Shown here: one piece after another, positions 23,199 to 31,358 of the stretch
Layout of the letters: each line of letters starts with the position of its first letter
Position numbering within the stretch: the first letter of the stretch is position 1
From: an uncultured Oscillospiraceae bacterium
GTDB lineage: Bacteria > Bacillota > Clostridia > Oscillospirales > Oscillospiraceae
Assembly: GCA_944385545.1 (NCBI GenBank)
Contig: CALWXQ010000001.1
Span: 1 to 48,696 of the forward strand
Length of the DNA: 48,696 nucleotides
Reading direction: 5' to 3'
Made by a program: the position numbers and the translations under genes
The notes under the pieces: generated by a model
What the model was told of the DNA's origin: nothing
Database searches by the model: none
What the model saw: only the letters and a program-made list of their open reading frames with translations

Positions 23199-25463
23199 AT
23201 GAAAAAGCTTCTGGCAATGCTGCTGGCGCTGACTATGGTTCTGTCCATGGCTGCCTGCGGCGGAAACGATGTTCCCGAAACCACGGCTTCCGTGGCGGCG
23301 AGCACCGAAGCAGTTGAAGCGCCCACCGATCCGGCAGACGAGGTTCTGTATGCTGAACTGAAGAGCCTGGCCAACAAGGAGTACGGCACTGACTACGTCT
23401 CCCTGTACAGCGAGTTCGGCAAGCAGACCACCGTTGACCAGGTCATTGAGGACGAGGAAAACGGCAACGCCTACATCGAGATCGACGGTGTTCTGTATAC
23501 GCTTGGTCTGGACTTCCTGTCCCGCGCCATGGTTTACAACACTTCCGTCCCCGAGGGCGGCGAATGGGAAACCGAGGATGACGTCTACGCCACCTGGTGG
23601 AGACTGTACATCCAGCGCTGGAACAACCTGCTGCCTGAGGTTCCCCTGTACTCCAATGAGTACTACGATCTGTACAACGCCCAGATCAAGGGAGTGGAGG
23701 AGTTCCCCACCAACCCCTACTGGAGCCCCTCCGATGCTCTGATTGACTGGACTTCCGAGAAGGAAGACGGTTCCATCATCATCGGCAACTCTACCGACCT
23801 GTCCGGTAAGTTCCGTTACGCTATCTTCGGCGGCACGACCCCCGGCGCCGCGGATCTGGACGTTCAGGATCTGACCCGTGGTCTGGAGACCGTTTCCACC
23901 ACCAAGGAAGGCGGCTACGTGTGGAATTCCACCGTTGTCAAGGAGCACACCGAGGTGGACAACGAGGACGGATCCCGCACCTACACCATCACCATCTATG
24001 ACGATCTGAAGATGTCTGACGGTTCCCCTGTTACGGTCAAGAACTATTTGGTGCACCCCATGGTCTTCTCCTCCGTGGTGGGCGCTCAGGCTGCCGGCAA
24101 GGATCACATGGCTTGCCTGCGGTACGTTGGCTTTGAGGGCTTCTCCGCTTACGACGGCACCAATGCCGGCCAGACCACCGAAAGCGGCGCCACCATCACC
24201 AAGGAACTGACCGGTCTGCGGATGATTGACGACTACACCTTCTCCGTGACCGTCGCTGCGGAGCATCTGCCCTACTTCTACGCCATGACCTACGGCGGCT
24301 TCTATGCTGACGACGTCGCTCTTTGGATCGGCGACTGCGACATCAAGGACGATGGCAACGGCGTGTATTTCACCGATGAGTTCTATGCCAAGAATGGCGA
24401 TTCCTATGTCATGGCTGAGCATGTGACGGACGCTGCCTGGAACGCCGACACCACCTATCCCTACTCCGGTCCTTATGTGGTTGAGTCCTACGACGAGGCT
24501 GACAAGTCCGCCGTTCTGAAGATCAACCCCGAATTCAAGGGCAACTACGAGGGCACCAAGCCTTCCATCGAAACCGTTGTCTACAAGAAAATCGTTACCG
24601 AGACCCAGATGGCTGACTTTACCTCCGGCGGCTTGGATGTAATTTCCGGCATCACCGGCGGCGACGAAACCAACGAGGCCATTGCTACTGCCGACGCTTC
24701 CAACGGCGCTTACGTCTACACCCACTACAGCCGCGCCGGCTACGGCAAGCTGGGCTTCCGCGCCGACTTCGGCCCTGTCCAGTTCACCGAGGTCCGTCAG
24801 GCCATTGCTTACTGCATGGATCGCGCCCAGTTCGCTAAGGACTTCACCGGCGGTTATGGCGGCGTTGTGGACGGCCCCTACTACACCGGCTCCTGGATGT
24901 ACAAGGCCGCTGTGGAGGACGGCATGATCCTGAACGCCTACGCCACCTCTGTTGACTCCGCCATTGCCGTTCTCGAGGAAGGCGGCTGGATCTACAACGC
25001 CGAGGGCGGCGAGTACACCGACGGCGTGCGTTACAAGAAGATCCCCGCTGCCGAAATGTCGGACAATGACAAGACCTACCAGTCCAAGGACGGCGCTTAC
25101 AAGACCGTTCAGGTTGGCGAGGATTACTACATGCCCCTGGTTCTGAACTGGTACGGCACCACCGACAACCCCTTCACCGATCTGCTGATGACTGGCTTCA
25201 TGAACAACGAGAACCTGGCTACCGCCGGCTTCGTGATCCAGAACACAGTTGGTGAGTTCAATCCCATGCTGGACGAGCTGTATCAGGCTCCCATCTATGG
25301 ATACTACAGCGGTACGCCTCTGTACTCCTGCTTCAACTTCGCTACCGGCTTCACCTCCGCCGCTTACGACTACTCCTACAACCTGACCATCGATCCTGCC
25401 GAGTACGACAACTACTCCCTTTACTACATTAAGGATCTGGCCGACGCCTACTGGCTGAAGTAA
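23199..25463 (+). CDS. peptide-type (SBP family 5) binding lipoprotein, apparently circularly permuted
   Basis: 754 residues, against about 540 for the family. Signal peptide with lipobox SMAAC (Cys 20). Residues about 104-187 (WWRLYIQRWNNLLPEVPLYS, NEYYDLYNAQIKGV, NPYWSPSDALIDW) match what is normally the extreme C-terminus of these proteins. The usual N-terminus then begins at about 191 (DGSIIIGNSTDLSGKFR), and the body runs through TYTITIYDDLKMSDGSPVT and FTEVRQAIAYCMDRAQ to the end at about DNYSLYYIKDLADAYW, where the normal tail would follow. This looks like a circular permutation. It presumably delivers peptides or another ligand to the permeases encoded next. Start at 23199 has AAGGAGG at 23184-23190. 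Confidence 0.88.
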   Translation: MKKLLAMLLALTMVLSMAACGGNDVPETTASVAASTEAVEAPTDPADEVLYAELKSLANKEYGTDYVSLYSEFGKQTTVDQVIEDEENGNAYIEIDGVLYTLGLDFLSRAMVYNTSVPEGGEWETEDDVYATWWRLYIQRWNNLLPEVPLYSNEYYDLYNAQIKGVEEFPTNPYWSPSDALIDWTSEKEDGSIIIGNSTDLSGKFRYAIFGGTTPGAADLDVQDLTRGLETVSTTKEGGYVWNSTVVKEHTEVDNEDGSRTYTITIYDDLKMSDGSPVTVKNYLVHPMVFSSVVGAQAAGKDHMACLRYVGFEGFSAYDGTNAGQTTESGATITKELTGLRMIDDYTFSVTVAAEHLPYFYAMTYGGFYADDVALWIGDCDIKDDGNGVYFTDEFYAKNGDSYVMAEHVTDAAWNADTTYPYSGPYVVESYDEADKSAVLKINPEFKGNYEGTKPSIETVVYKKIVTETQMADFTSGGLDVISGITGGDETNEAIATADASNGAYVYTHYSRAGYGKLGFRADFGPVQFTEVRQAIAYCMDRAQFAKDFTGGYGGVVDGPYYTGSWMYKAAVEDGMILNAYATSVDSAIAVLEEGGWIYNAEGGEYTDGVRYKKIPAAEMSDNDKTYQSKDGAYKTVQVGEDYYMPLVLNWYGTTDNPFTDLLMTGFMNNENLATAGFVIQNTVGEFNPMLDELYQAPIYGYYSGTPLYSCFNFATGFTSAAYDYSYNLTIDPAEYDNYSLYYIKDLADAYWLK

Positions 25464-25652: not shown

Positions 25653-25785
25653 CTGTGCCAAGCCATCGGGGTCAGTGATTTACTGTCTCGGACAATCAGT
25701 GAGAATCATTCGCGGAAAAATCCGCATCATACATAGAAACGGCGGCTTGACGCTGCCGCCTACGGCAAAGAAACGAGGAATCACT

Positions 25786-26829
25786 ATGACAAAATACGTC
25801 ATTAAGCGAATCGCCTATATGCTGGTGGTTTTGGTGATCCTGTCTGTGATCATGTTCCTGATCTACAGTCTGGTTCCCAGCAACCGCGCCTATACCGACG
25901 CCACCAACGAAATAAAGGCACTGAAAAATGTGCTTCCCAAGGATAAGGTGGATGAGAAATTCGAGGAGCTGTATCTGATGTATCAGCGCCGCTATGGTAC
26001 CGATACCGACAGCAAGATCATTCGCTATCTGCGCTGGGTAGGCGTCTACCCCCTGTATGACGGCAGCTTTAACGGCCTGCTCCAGGGTAACTTCGGCTAC
26101 TCCTATGAGTACCAGAAGCCGGTGCTGGAAGTGATCAAGAATCCTATGATCAACACCATTAAGATCAATATTTGGGCCACCATTCTTGGCCTGGGTATTA
26201 CCATCCCCTTGGGCATCGTCTGCGCGGTGAGGCGTGGCGGCAAGCTGGATCAAACAATGTCCGTCGTCACCATTTTGGGCTATAGTCTGCCCACCTTCGT
26301 CATCAGTATTTTGTTCATTTGGATTTTCTGCTCCAAGCTGAACATCTTCCCGCCCAGCGGTATGAAGACTCCAGGCTCCAATTATACCGGTTTTCGGCAG
26401 TTCCAGGATGAGATGTACTACATGGCGCTGCCTCTGATTGTCATGACCTTCTCCTCCCTTGGCGGCATGACCCGGTATGTCCGGGCCTCCATGGCAGACG
26501 CTCTGAGCATGGACTGCATCCGTACCGCCCGGGCTAAGGGACTGCGGGAGAAGACTGTCATTTACTCCCACGCCTTCCGTAACGCCCTGATTCCCATTGT
26601 TTCCCTGGTGGTGGGTTGGTTCCTGGGCATTTTCGGCGGCTCACTGGTGGTGGAAAGCATGTTCGCCTGGAATGGCATGGGCAAGCTGATGATCACCTCC
26701 CTGCGGACGGCTGACTATGAAGTGGTTCTTCTGATGCAGATGTTCTACGTGGCGATGTCCCTGGTAGGCAACCTGATCATTGACATTGTCTACGGCATTG
26801 TGGATCCTCGCGTCCGGGTGAATAACTAA
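25786..26829 (+). CDS. peptide-type ABC transporter permease (DppB/OppB)
   Basis: 347 residues with the N-terminal span MLVVLVILSVIMFLIYSLVP, an extracytoplasmic region enlarged by a charged stretch (about residues 45-85) relative to DppB, the QGNFGYSYEYQKPV segment, and five further spans. The EAA loop ADALSMDCIRTARAKGLREK contacts the ATPases, and the end DIVYGIVDPRVR is family-typical. The start at 25786 has GAGGA upstream; 37 extra codons upstream lie in the intergenic repeat and are rejected. It pairs with the RCC1-bearing permease encoded 19 bases downstream. Confidence 0.92.
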   Translation: MTKYVIKRIAYMLVVLVILSVIMFLIYSLVPSNRAYTDATNEIKALKNVLPKDKVDEKFEELYLMYQRRYGTDTDSKIIRYLRWVGVYPLYDGSFNGLLQGNFGYSYEYQKPVLEVIKNPMINTIKINIWATILGLGITIPLGIVCAVRRGGKLDQTMSVVTILGYSLPTFVISILFIWIFCSKLNIFPPSGMKTPGSNYTGFRQFQDEMYYMALPLIVMTFSSLGGMTRYVRASMADALSMDCIRTARAKGLREKTVIYSHAFRNALIPIVSLVVGWFLGIFGGSLVVESMFAWNGMGKLMITSLRTADYEVVLLMQMFYVAMSLVGNLIIDIVYGIVDPRVRVNN

Positions 26830-26848: not shown

Positions 26849-28822
26849 ATGACCAAACAGAATAAAAATTCCTCCGGCTTGGCAGCGACGCTGAAGCGGT
26901 GGTTCCTCCGCTTCTGGAAGGGCGGTGCCAACGCCCTGGCCGATGAAATGGAGGAGAAAAAGGCCGATATGTCCGTGGAGGAAATCGTCAGCCCCATGCA
27001 GCAGGTGATCCGTAATTTCTTGGACCGGAAGCTGGCGGTGGGCGCTACCGTCGTTCTGATCGCCATGTTCCTGACCATGTTTATCGGACCGATGCTCATG
27101 CCCAAGTACTACGACGCCTATACCGAGGTGACCCAGAAAAGCATTGCGCCCACCTTGTCCATGATGAAGGTTCCCAAGGAGTTGGCTGACGATGTAAAGA
27201 TGATCGACGGCTACGGCTCCTTCTCCGTGGGCCTGAGCAACGCCGGAAAGGTCTACATCTGGGGCTCCACCCAGATCGGTACCACCGGTGTGGACATTGG
27301 AGATATCCCCGAGGATGTGCTTAATGCGAATATCGTTATGGTGGCAGCCGGCATCGACCATGTGATCGCCATTGATGACAAGGGCATCGTCCATGCCTGG
27401 GGCAACAACCGTCTCGGACAGTACACCACCCTGGCGGATGTAGAGGCCAGCGGCGGTGAGATCAACCCCAACATTGCCTATATGCCGGAAGAACTGGTCA
27501 CCACCGGCATTGATGTGAACAACATTAAGAAACTCACCTGCGGCTACCAGTGCACCGCTATTTTGATGAACGACGGCTCCTTCTACCTGTGGGGCAATAA
27601 GCTGGCCTATGCCAACATCGATCTGTTCCTGAATGCCGGCAGCATGTACGATATGGACTTCACCCTGAACTATATCGTAGGCATCAACGGCAAGCGCAAT
27701 TCCATCTACACCGGCTCCCGCGGCCTGTATGATGTCGTCCGCTCCGAGGTGGGTGGCGAAACCACCAAGATCAAGGATTACCTGGACGGTCGTAAAATCG
27801 AGGCCATTACCGCTGCCAATAACAGCATGTGCCTGCTGCTGGACGATGGCTCCGTCTGCTTCGCCGGCGACTATGCCGGTAATTTGACCCCCTCTCCTGT
27901 CCTTGCCGAAGACGAAGATTTTGTCCAGATTGTTGCCGGTTCCTATCACTACTCCGGCCTGACCAACAAGGGCAATATCTATTCCTGGGGCAGCAACACC
28001 CTGGATCAGACCGAGGTGCCCAAGAACTACGAAGGCGCTACCAAGCTCTACAACGGCGCTTTCCAGACCTACGCCGTGGACGATAACGACGATGTGGTGG
28101 CGAAGTGGGGCCTGAAAGGCTACCTGTTCGGCACGGACACCGCCGGCGCGGACATCTTCCAGCGGATTATCAACGGTGGTAAGATGACCATGACCATTGG
28201 TGCCGTGGCTGTTATCATCTCCTCCGTCATCGGCATCATCGTCGGCTGTATCTCTGGTTATTTCGGCGGCAAGGTGGACATCCTGCTGATGCGGATCGCG
28301 GAGATCTTCAACGCCATCCCGTTCATTCCCTTCGCCATGATCCTCTCCGCCATTATGGGCCGTATGACCCTCAGCGAAGATATGCGGATCTTTATCATCA
28401 TGTGCATTCTGGGCGTGCTGACCTGGCCGGGTCTTGCCCGGCTGGTTCGGGGACAGGTTTTGGTGGCCCGTGAGAGCGAATATGTCACCGCCGCCAAGGC
28501 CCTGGGCGTGAAGGAATATACCATTGCCTTCAAGCACATTCTGCCCAACGTCATGTCCGTAATCCTGGTCAACCTTGTGTTGAACTTCGGCACCTGTATG
28601 CTCACCGAGTCCAGCTTGTCCTACCTGGGCTTCGGCGTCACCTATCCCCGTCCTACCTGGGGTAACATGCTCAACGGCGCCAACAATGCCACCATTATCA
28701 ATGCCTATTGGTGGCAGTGGGTATTCACCGCCGCGTTCCTGGCGATCACCTGCATCTGTATTAACATTGTAGGCGACAACCTCCGCGACGCCATGGATCC
28801 CAAGGCCAACAGTTCCAGATAA
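26849..28822 (+). CDS. peptide-type ABC permease (DppC/OppC) with an RCC1-like propeller in its first outer loop
   Basis: 657 residues, about twice the usual DppC. Residues 1-60 are a cytoplasmic OppC-N tail; span 1 is at about 61-81. From about 115 to 423 come RCC1-like units with G-x-H/S, an acidic-Gly turn and a WG pair: near 119-140, 164-190, 227-250, 270-290 (degenerate), 316-342, 359-386 and 397-421. That is about seven, enough to close a propeller. The normal permease resumes at GTDTAGADIF (428-437; canonical GTDxxGRD), then spans and the EAA loop ESEYVTAAKALGVKEY (542-557). Because the usual DppC loop here is outside the membrane, the propeller should be extracytoplasmic. RBS AAGGAGG. 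Function of the propeller unknown. Confidence 0.9.
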   Translation: MTKQNKNSSGLAATLKRWFLRFWKGGANALADEMEEKKADMSVEEIVSPMQQVIRNFLDRKLAVGATVVLIAMFLTMFIGPMLMPKYYDAYTEVTQKSIAPTLSMMKVPKELADDVKMIDGYGSFSVGLSNAGKVYIWGSTQIGTTGVDIGDIPEDVLNANIVMVAAGIDHVIAIDDKGIVHAWGNNRLGQYTTLADVEASGGEINPNIAYMPEELVTTGIDVNNIKKLTCGYQCTAILMNDGSFYLWGNKLAYANIDLFLNAGSMYDMDFTLNYIVGINGKRNSIYTGSRGLYDVVRSEVGGETTKIKDYLDGRKIEAITAANNSMCLLLDDGSVCFAGDYAGNLTPSPVLAEDEDFVQIVAGSYHYSGLTNKGNIYSWGSNTLDQTEVPKNYEGATKLYNGAFQTYAVDDNDDVVAKWGLKGYLFGTDTAGADIFQRIINGGKMTMTIGAVAVIISSVIGIIVGCISGYFGGKVDILLMRIAEIFNAIPFIPFAMILSAIMGRMTLSEDMRIFIIMCILGVLTWPGLARLVRGQVLVARESEYVTAAKALGVKEYTIAFKHILPNVMSVILVNLVLNFGTCMLTESSLSYLGFGVTYPRPTWGNMLNGANNATIINAYWWQWVFTAAFLAITCICINIVGDNLRDAMDPKANSSR

Positions 28823-28834
28823 GGAGGAAGAAGC

Positions 28835-29824
28835 ATGGCATTACTTGAACTTCGAGATCTGCACACCTTCTTCCACACGAAGAAAGGTATCGTAAAAGCC
28901 GTCAACGGCGTGTCTTATTCCGTTGAGGAGGGCAAAACTCTGGGTGTTGTGGGTGAGTCCGGCTCCGGCAAGTCTGTGTCCGCAATGAGCATCCTGCAGC
29001 TGCTGGACGGAAACGGCTATATCGACTCCGGCGAGATCTTGTTTGAGGGCAGGGATCTGACCAAGGTCTCTATGAACGACCTGTACAGCATCCGCGGCAA
29101 CAAGATTTCCGTGATCTTCCAGGAGCCTATGACCAGCCTGAACCCGGTGTTCACTGTGGAGCGGCAGCTTTCCGAGCCCTTCATCATCCACCGGGGCATG
29201 AAAAAGAAGGAAGCCGCCAAGGAAGCGATCAAAATGCTGGCTGACGTAAAGATCCCCAATCCGGAGATCGTGGTCAAGCAGTATCCCCACCAGCTTTCCG
29301 GCGGTATGCGCCAGAGAGTCATGATCGCCATGGCCCTGGCCTGTGAGCCGAAGCTGCTCATTGCCGACGAGCCCACCACCGCTCTGGACGTGACCATCCA
29401 GGCCCAGATTCTGCGCCTGATGAACGACCTGAAAGAGCGTCACGGCACCGCTATCATGTTCATCACCCACGACCTGGGCGTTATCAACCAGATGGCCGAC
29501 GACGTTGCGGTTATGTACTGCGGCGAAGTGGTGGAGCGGGTTCCTGCCCGCGTCCTGTTCGCCAGCACCACCAAGCATTCTCACCCCTACACCGAGGGAC
29601 TGCTGGCATCCGTTCCCCGACTGGACACCACCGCTGCCCGACTGGACGCCATTCCCGGCGCGGTTCCCCACCCGCTGGATCTGCCCAAGGGCTGCAAATT
29701 CGCTCCCCGCTGTAAATATTGTACCCAGAAGTGCATCGACGAGGTCCCCGAACTGGTAAAGGTCGGCCCGGATCAGGAGATCCGCTGCTTCTATCCGGAG
29801 AAGGAGGCGCGCCATGGAAAATAA
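28835..29824 (+). CDS. peptide-type ABC transporter ATPase (DppD/OppD)
   Basis: 329 residues of normal architecture: Walker A GESGSGKS, Q-loop FQEPMTSLNPVF, signature LSGGMRQR, Walker B LLIADEPTTALD, H-loop His in FITHDLGV, and the C-terminal oligopeptide domain with the cysteine motif CKFAPRCKYCTQKC. In some relatives these cysteines bind an iron-sulfur cluster. RBS AAGGAGGAAG follows directly on the permease stop. Its last codons overlap the start of the next ATPase by 11 bases. Confidence 0.95.
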   Translation: MALLELRDLHTFFHTKKGIVKAVNGVSYSVEEGKTLGVVGESGSGKSVSAMSILQLLDGNGYIDSGEILFEGRDLTKVSMNDLYSIRGNKISVIFQEPMTSLNPVFTVERQLSEPFIIHRGMKKKEAAKEAIKMLADVKIPNPEIVVKQYPHQLSGGMRQRVMIAMALACEPKLLIADEPTTALDVTIQAQILRLMNDLKERHGTAIMFITHDLGVINQMADDVAVMYCGEVVERVPARVLFASTTKHSHPYTEGLLASVPRLDTTAARLDAIPGAVPHPLDLPKGCKFAPRCKYCTQKCIDEVPELVKVGPDQEIRCFYPEKEARHGK

Positions 29825-31358
29825 AGAAAAGAAGCTTCTGCTCCAAATCACCAATCTGAAGCAGTATTTCCCAGTGGGCAAGGGCCGGTTTGTCCGCGCC
29901 AACGACGGCATTACCCTGGATATTTACGAAGGGGAAACCTTCGGCCTGGTGGGTGAGTCCGGCTGCGGTAAGTCCACCTTGGGTCGCTCCATTCTTCAGC
30001 TGTACAAGCAGACCGATGGCCGTACCATGTACTTCGGCCGCTCCATTAATGAGCTGGCTCCCAAGTACGCCTACCATACCTTCCGCACCCTGAGCAAGCG
30101 CCGGGCGGAGGTCAAGCAGAAGCAGGAAAAGTACACGGCTTTCCGCGCTGAGTATGACAAGCTTGAGGAGAAAGAGCGTTACCAGAAGCACGGGGAAATG
30201 GTGCACCTGCGCAAGGAAGCCAAAGACGCGTTGCTGGACGTGACTACCCTGATTGGCGGTCTGTTCGTCCACCCCGACCTTTCCAAGGTGGAGGCTGCCT
30301 TCATGGAGGTGTATAAGATCTCCAAGGAATTAAGCGCGGCTGTTGAGAAGCGGGATGACGCAAAGCTGACTGTGGACGACCTGACGTATGCTCTGGAAGA
30401 AGCCAACAAGGCCGGTAAGCCTGCTGACAAGCTGGCGACCAAGCTGGCGGCCGCCCAAGCCAAGCTGGACGGCGTGCTGGCCCAGATGGATTCCATCAAT
30501 GCCCGCCTGGAGGACAGCGGCAAGCGCATTGCCGCCCTGCGCCAGGAGTGCTTAGGTATGGAGGGCTATGACGAGTACGAAGCTGACCACAGCGAAGGCA
30601 TCGATCTGGCCCGACTGAACTACGGGGAAATGCGCAAGCTCCGCAGCGACCTACAGCTGATTTTCCAGGATCCCTACTCCTCTCTGAACCCCCGTATGAC
30701 TGTGGGGCAGATCATTGGCGAGGGCATGATCGCCCATAAATTCTTCCGTAAGAACGATAAGCGGATGCAGGAGGGCGTCATCGAAATCATGGAGGAGTGC
30801 GGCCTGGCGCCCTACTTCCTCCACCGGTATCCCCACCAGTTCTCCGGCGGTCAGCGGCAGCGGATTGGCATCGCCCGTTCCCTTGCCCTTCGGCCGAAGT
30901 TTGTGGTTTGTGACGAAGCGGTTTCCGCTCTGGACGTTTCCATCCAGGCCCAGATTATCAACCTGCTCCAGGATCTGAAGGAAAAGCAGAATCTGACTTA
31001 TCTGTTCATCACCCACGACCTGTCGGTGGTCAAATACATCTCCGACCGGATCGGCGTTATGTACCTGGGCAATATGGTGGAGACAGCCACTTCCGACGAG
31101 ATCTTTGCCCATCCCCTCCATCCCTACACTGAGGCGCTGCTCAATGCCATCCCCACCATTGACGAGGATGCCAGCCGCAACCCGGAGATTCTGGAGGGCG
31201 ATATTCCCAGCCCCGTCAATCCCCCCAAGGGCTGCAAGTTCCACACCCGCTGCAAGTACTGCACCGAGATCTGCACCCAGGTGGTTCCCCACATGGAGGA
31301 GGTTCGGCCTAACCATTTCGTAGCCTGCCACCACGTGCTGGAAGCCAACAAGGAGTGA
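29814..31358 (+). CDS. peptide-type ABC ATPase (DppF/OppF) with a long helical insert
   Basis: 514 residues, about 190 more than usual. Walker A GESGCGKST at 47-55; the normal YFGRSINEL strand follows, then an insert from about 82 to 262, rich in Lys, Glu, Ala, Gln and Leu and mostly predicted helix or coiled coil by eye (RAEVKQKQEKYTAFRAEYDK and KLAAAQAKLDGVLAQMDS). The core resumes at MRKLRSDLQLIFQDPYSS with the Q-loop (Gln 285), signature FSGGQRQR (343-350), Walker B FVVCDE (363-368) and His 401, then the C-terminal cysteine motif. All catalytic motifs are intact, so the insert is an added module facing the cytoplasm, perhaps a partner-binding or regulatory arm (inference). Confidence 0.92.
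   Translation: MENKEKKLLLQITNLKQYFPVGKGRFVRANDGITLDIYEGETFGLVGESGCGKSTLGRSILQLYKQTDGRTMYFGRSINELAPKYAYHTFRTLSKRRAEVKQKQEKYTAFRAEYDKLEEKERYQKHGEMVHLRKEAKDALLDVTTLIGGLFVHPDLSKVEAAFMEVYKISKELSAAVEKRDDAKLTVDDLTYALEEANKAGKPADKLATKLAAAQAKLDGVLAQMDSINARLEDSGKRIAALRQECLGMEGYDEYEADHSEGIDLARLNYGEMRKLRSDLQLIFQDPYSSLNPRMTVGQIIGEGMIAHKFFRKNDKRMQEGVIEIMEECGLAPYFLHRYPHQFSGGQRQRIGIARSLALRPKFVVCDEAVSALDVSIQAQIINLLQDLKEKQNLTYLFITHDLSVVKYISDRIGVMYLGNMVETATSDEIFAHPLHPYTEALLNAIPTIDEDASRNPEILEGDIPSPVNPPKGCKFHTRCKYCTEICTQVVPHMEEVRPNHFVACHHVLEANKE

Follow-up and report, generated by a model that had tools for sequence, protein, structure and literature searches.

Closest described systems

Oligopeptide and dipeptide ABC importers of the OppABCDF/DppABCDF type (E. 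coli, 8z21 and 8z1v; M. tuberculosis, 8j5q and 8wd9) have in common with the locus analysed here the permease core, the operon content and the combination of OppC_N with BPD_transp_1. The E. coli OppC and the OppC of this locus were 39% identical over 227 columns (Foldseek), but the E. coli protein has 2 residues at a point where ours has about 320, and, unlike OppABCDF and DppABCDF, the system in the window (the whole 48,696-nucleotide stretch of DNA analysed, from an uncultured Oscillospiraceae bacterium) also has an insert in OppF and a circularly permuted substrate-binding protein (SBP). The P2 domain of MalF differs from the RCC1-like propeller predicted for the extra OppC residues in subunit family, loop and fold. 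It is comparable in being a folded periplasmic domain carried by a membrane subunit of an importer and touching the SBP (PMC3150292), a contact that the propeller may likewise make. The scoop motif of DppB is similarly a periplasmic element that follows TM1 of a Dpp membrane subunit and engages the SBP (PMC12136057), although it is a short helix-loop-helix in the B subunit, whereas the element described here is a propeller in the C subunit.

Outside transporters, BLIP-II has an RCC1-like propeller that matched ours with a Foldseek TM score of 0.73-0.75 by BLIP-II length, so that most of BLIP-II was aligned, at 18-20% identity; BLIP-II, however, is a free inhibitor protein and not part of any transporter. 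The propellers of UVR8, RCC1, RPGR and HERC2, which are eukaryotic proteins with other functions, have the same RCC1-like fold (E values down to 5.9e-13 and 15-21% identity in Foldseek). By title and abstract, no RCC1 propeller in an ABC permease and no such insertion in OppC was noticed in searches of the open-licence PMC literature, outside which most subscription papers lie; in PMC10804542, "RCC1" is the name of a strain. Likewise, no circularly permuted family 5 SBP was noticed in searches of that literature, where circular permutation of solute-binding proteins brought up a paper that, to judge by its title, concerns FRET sensors. A peptide ABC importer is a known system, and the propeller-bearing architecture appears to be a new version of it.

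An Opp/Dpp-type operon with a fused OppC

The window contained a family 5 SBP, two permeases and two ATPases with oligo_HPY, which is the content that defines an Opp/Dpp operon, and membership of these families suggests peptides as the substrate.

23199..25463, forward strand: lipoprotein-like SBP of family 5, 754 aa, circularly permuted by alignment (SBP_bac_5, E 5.1e-28)
25786..26829, forward strand: OppB/DppB-type permease, 347 aa (BPD_transp_1, E 3.6e-40; Opp4B, E 2.4e-67, below its cut-off)
26849..28822, forward strand: RCC1::OppC fusion permease, 657 aa (ORF, Pfam, phmmer, AlphaFold2 model)
28835..29824, forward strand: OppD-type ATPase, 329 aa (ABC_tran, oligo_HPY)
29814..31358, forward strand: OppF-type ATPase, 514 aa (ABC_tran, oligo_HPY)

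The OppB start (ATG 25786) was picked by eye within an ORF that opens at GTG 25675, and the OppB searches started at 25783. The gene order in relatives was SBP-OppB-RCC1::OppC-OppD-OppF; an SBP gene stood 5' of the OppB and fusion genes in 73 of the 80 loci, and contig edges cut short the remaining 7. A second, ordinary opp operon lacking RCC1 lay directly downstream of the RCC1 operon in two relatives (L045:12774-16911 and L094:12443-16860). The fusion gene was split over two ORFs or frames in L075 and L094, by either sequencing error or decay.

A seven-bladed propeller in the TM1-TM2 loop

27029..27097, forward strand: TM1, fusion residues 61-83 (model helix 61-83; OppC_N 48-91)
27194..28111, forward strand: seven-bladed RCC1-like beta-propeller, residues 116-421, in the TM1-TM2 extracytoplasmic loop (Pfam, model strands, Foldseek)
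28118..28807, forward strand: permease core from the GTD motif region on, residues 424-653 (BPD_transp_1 462-653; E. coli OppC alignment from 423)

The preliminary description had placed about 310 extra residues, at 27191-28117, between span 1 and the GTD motif of a DppC-type permease. In a phmmer search of PDB sequences, fusion residues 48-102 aligned weakly (8.3 bits) with residues 24-77 of E. coli OppC (8z21_B) and residues 423-652 aligned with 80-300; from this two-block alignment, about 320 residues are inserted after TM1 and just before the GTD motif, which bears out that description. Its coordinates correspond to residues 115-423, within a few residues of the strands in the model (116-421). 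Both OppC_N (48-91) and BPD_transp_1 (462-653) exceeded their Pfam cut-offs, as did RCC1_2 (E 1.2e-21, 76.3 bits against a cut-off of 22) and RCC1 (E 1.9e-6, 28.8 bits against 21.7), the repeats spanning residues about 110 to 421, so the HMMER comparison that the description had proposed gave an RCC1 score better than chance. WD40_RLD also matched (E 3e-30, 106.2 bits), below the cut-off of 150 needed for membership, and the fusion did not reach the NCBIfam equivalog level for Opp4C, OppC or DppC (best, Opp4C, 292.3 bits against a cut-off of 350). Parts of residues 107-252 matched UVR8, RCC1 and BLIP-II chains in the PDB sequences (phmmer). OppC_N, RCC1_2, RCC1, WD40_RLD and BPD_transp_1 were each found in 48/48 family members scanned, a count that expresses consistency rather than frequency because the members were picked as relatives of the fusion.

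A chance match to RCC1 was rejected on the Pfam scores and on scans of the organism's own and control genomes: RCC1_2 matched nowhere else in the own genome (85.5% complete), both of its 2 matches lying inside the fusion ORF, and in 0/14 control genomes. The same scan disposed of the idea that RCC1 is a repeat family spread through this genome. An assembly or annotation artefact was likewise rejected, given one unbroken ORF, 225 related stretches and recurrence in other genomes.

An AlphaFold2 model of the fusion, built on an alignment of 48 sequences, had a mean pLDDT of 83 and a pTM of 0.74; within the propeller, ten-residue blocks scored 81-96. Its strands fell into seven units (116-139, 162-185, 226-250, 268-307, 317-340, 358-382 and 399-421), each of blades 1-3 and 5-7 being a strand triplet and blade 4 (268-307) being less regular. 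The permease part matched OppC and DppC structures (Foldseek; 8z21_B, E 1e-15), and the propeller matched BLIP-II (3qi0_A, E 1.6e-12, TM 0.75 by target length) and UVR8 (6xzn_A, E 5.9e-13). Pfam, the confident seven-bladed model and these matches agree with the proposal of an RCC1-like propeller in the outer loop, and the ring may close, given how much of BLIP-II was aligned. Of the about seven units with WG pairs that had been described, the seven units stood, whereas WG pairs occurred in five (residues 138, 184, 248, 380 and 420) and were missing from blades 4 and 5. The conserved propeller positions resemble those that we take to be generic for RCC1 repeats, a point against the docking reading given below. 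Exchange on a Ran GTPase, as by RCC1, is implausible for the fusion because of the extracytoplasmic place of the propeller. The BLIP-II propeller is also made of seven blades, each three-stranded (PMC6121496).

The position of the propeller near the binding protein, as first supposed, fits the DppABCDF structure: there the TM1-TM2 region of DppC lies in the periplasm, and DppB and DppC are capped by DppA (PMC12136057). The reading that we favour, tentatively and at a little short of an even chance, is that the locus encodes an oligopeptide importer of the Opp/Dpp type whose OppC uses its seven-bladed RCC1-like propeller to dock or hold the SBP. The propeller would stand beside the SBP landing site and would bind the SBP, which would then be held or oriented on the translocator much as MalE is contacted by MalF-P2. 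Several solved RCC1-like propellers are bound to a protein partner, which counts for SBP docking; partner complexes among the Foldseek matches were BLIP-II/TEM-1, UVR8/COP1 and UVR8/RUP2, RPGR/PDE6D, and RCC1/Ran. If the docking reading is true, a beta-propeller can take over the task of docking the SBP on an ABC importer.

Distribution and origin of the fusion

A contig scan found 233 stretches carrying one pattern at the fusion joint, 225 of which were relatives; in the best 80 of these 225, which were read, the titles named Clostridia, Bacillota or groups within, and many came from gut samples such as rumen or colon. Relatives included Butyrivibrio records not marked as metagenome-assembled genomes (L064, L074, L083 and L084). 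In a profile search, matches reaching into the propeller were obtained from 30/394 genomes of the order sample and 14/398 of the phylum sample, the own genome included in each; these counts include partial matches (G205, G174, G045 and G697) and follow the removal of rows that were mainly permease (G191 and G343 from the order sample, G438 from the phylum sample). No RCC1 match was found in L114 (from G191) or L146 (from G343). The taxonomic survey that had been suggested thus placed RCC1-bearing permeases in many clostridial relatives, in gut and rumen habitats where peptide uptake likely matters. Within the own genus, fused OppC was present in 3/5 sampled genomes and absent from 2/5; this absence counts against the docking reading, as does the fact that ordinary Opp importers dock their SBP without a propeller.

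A tree was built from 139 permease-core rows (130 different), entry requiring that the ORF match the permease with 150 bits or more over about 215 columns; 13 loci repeating others were left out, and one species may occur twice, from two collections. All 117 RCC1-bearing permeases lay on one side of a branch with support 100/99, against 22 without RCC1, the latter being no random sample because they were fetched mostly for long ORFs. On this unrooted tree with selected non-RCC1 rows, the topology would fit a single origin of RCC1::OppC.

Other additions to the same loop

In 8 of 9 non-RCC1 OppCs with both flanks matched (L145-L154, picked for long ORFs) the TM1-TM2 loop had 143-394 residues, the ninth having 51, and in the 10 non-RCC1 OppCs scanned no Pfam domain above cut-off was found in that loop. 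The loop may be a general site of extracytoplasmic additions in Clostridia, and the propeller could, on these loop lengths and the lack of recognisable domains, be a spacer or stabiliser that is tolerated and has no specific partner. We consider this improbable: the repeat architecture was kept over deep divergence (29 aligned propellers were 25-55% identical to that of the window), and RCC1 matches occurred in every one of the 48 chosen members. Large non-RCC1 inserts at this site include L145:5199-6761, L148:4002-6110, L147:7512-9566 and others. An initial impression of InlB-like or rotamase-like pieces among the other loop inserts found no support in the Pfam scan.

A circularly permuted SBP in one subclade

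23376..23768, forward strand: SBP residues ~60-190, the C-terminal segment in canonical-order homologues (alignments to the L106 SBP and PDB 9p48)

Residues 190-754 of the window SBP aligned with 73-641 of the L106 SBP, and residues 102-182 with 658-726, at 46-47% identity, while the SBPs of three permuted relatives aligned straight through with that of the window. A profile made from 40 SBPs of the fusion-operon family behaved in the same manner against PDB 9p48, profile positions 422-568 matching residues 176-312 and positions 132-189 matching residues 502-556 of 562 (the latter E 1.4e-6); a third piece (214-290 to 14-86) was weak, with an E value of 1.8. The stronger evidence of permutation is the comparison within the family, in which both orders occur. 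The segment was N-terminal in 55 SBPs and C-terminal in 14, with 4 truncated SBPs uninformative and a fifth uninformative row ("only M") being another gene of L110. In 18 further loci the order was canonical in 15 and permuted in 3 (L155, L156 and L170). With the order set by hand for 18 tree rows, 17 of them from the 18 further loci, a single change on the tree was enough to account for the permuted order in 59 rows and the canonical order in 28, a further 30 rows being unassigned. The alignments thus show, at the level of sequence, a circularly permuted SBP in one subclade that includes the window. Neither the permutation nor the OppF insert figured in the preliminary description.

Permutation places the N-terminus of the SBP, where the lipid anchor presumably sits, elsewhere on the fold, and the shifted anchor may alter how the SBP is seated against the propeller. 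Since canonical and permuted SBPs occur on homologous transporters, the roles of anchor position and SBP orientation become testable, and such transporters are valuable independently of the docking reading.

Co-divergence of the propeller and the SBP

Partial distance correlations were calculated for six parts of the operon (15 pairs), all six being present in 62 of 80 loci and 51 loci remaining after dereplication. At n = 51 the three highest of the 15 pairs were OppB-OppC permease (0.93), OppD-OppF (0.89) and propeller-SBP (0.84), the fourth-highest value being 0.17, and the propeller correlated with its own permease half at 0.09. Counterparts of the first two pairs are physical partners in DppBCDF (PMC12136057). 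Contacts named in the DppABCDF structure (PMC12136057) were nevertheless missed by the test, namely OppB-OppD (0.04), OppC permease-OppF (0.07), SBP-OppB (0.16) and SBP-OppC permease (-0.14). Within the permuted clade, before dereplication (51 loci), the propeller-SBP value was 0.39, with 0/500 permutations as high, and the OppB-propeller value of 0.21 was also unmatched in 500; after dereplication (n = 42), propeller-SBP stood at 0.38 and propeller-OppD, a pair involving a cytoplasmic subunit, at 0.35. In three subclades propeller-SBP fell to 0.28 (fifth of 15), 0.27 (seventh of 15) and -0.28 (n = 9); the corresponding OppB-propeller values were 0.39, 0.46 and 0.81. Because of this drop within the clade and its subclades, the propeller-SBP signal mostly reflects one deep split, between canonical and permuted clades. 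Membrane, ATPase and external layers may simply evolve as modules, and propeller and SBP, both extracytoplasmic, could simply evolve alike. Of the functions proposed at the outset, a docking site gained indirect and limited support from this co-divergence.

The propeller might instead bind another surface partner, such as the cell wall, a peptidase, a neighbouring cell or a substrate polymer, and so hold the importer near its food. The varied partners of RCC1-like propellers in solved structures are in keeping with this, as is a neighbour family, exemplified by the Peptidase_M3 gene L100:2171-3934, that lay upstream on the same strand in 10/72 loci. No extra gene family, however, occurred near the operon in more than 14/72 loci (ORFs of at least 150 aa; flanks often short), and propeller and SBP diverged together over the 51 loci left after dereplication, so that we regard another partner as unlikely. 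On the docking reading, the lineage would have evolved a beta-propeller platform for the SBP in OppC together with the OppF insert, and later a permuted SBP in one subclade, propeller and SBP evolving as a pair, and the outer half of a type I ABC importer would thereby have been rebuilt; this history is possible, though we lean somewhat towards doubting it.

An insert in OppF

30066..30596, forward strand: ~180-residue insert in OppF, about residues 85-261 (profile positions skipped by non-RCC1 OppF)

The OppFs of the 12 non-RCC1 operons read all lacked the insert. In the RCC1 operons L033-L112, OppF was 493-625 aa long (stop-to-stop) in 67 listed genes, some others ending at contig edges, and among a further 17 loci whose OppF was full-length it was long in 16, the exception being L157 (339 aa); that of L172 ended at a contig edge. 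DppF, the counterpart of OppF, pairs with DppC (PMC12136057). The prevalence of long OppFs, and the continuation of the propeller straight into the permease GTD motif, would suit a propeller that serves as a second peptide receptor, or as an entrance gate or sensor, with the OppF insert as the other end of the signal. Such a role seems quite unlikely to us: no ligand site was identified in the propeller, the propeller-OppF partial correlation was -0.18 (n = 51), and L157 has a propeller together with an OppF that lacks the insert. The OppF of L085 was in two pieces or ORFs, through sequencing error or decay. The OppF insert itself matched Snapin/Pallidin below the Pfam cut-off, which we read as a putative coiled coil.
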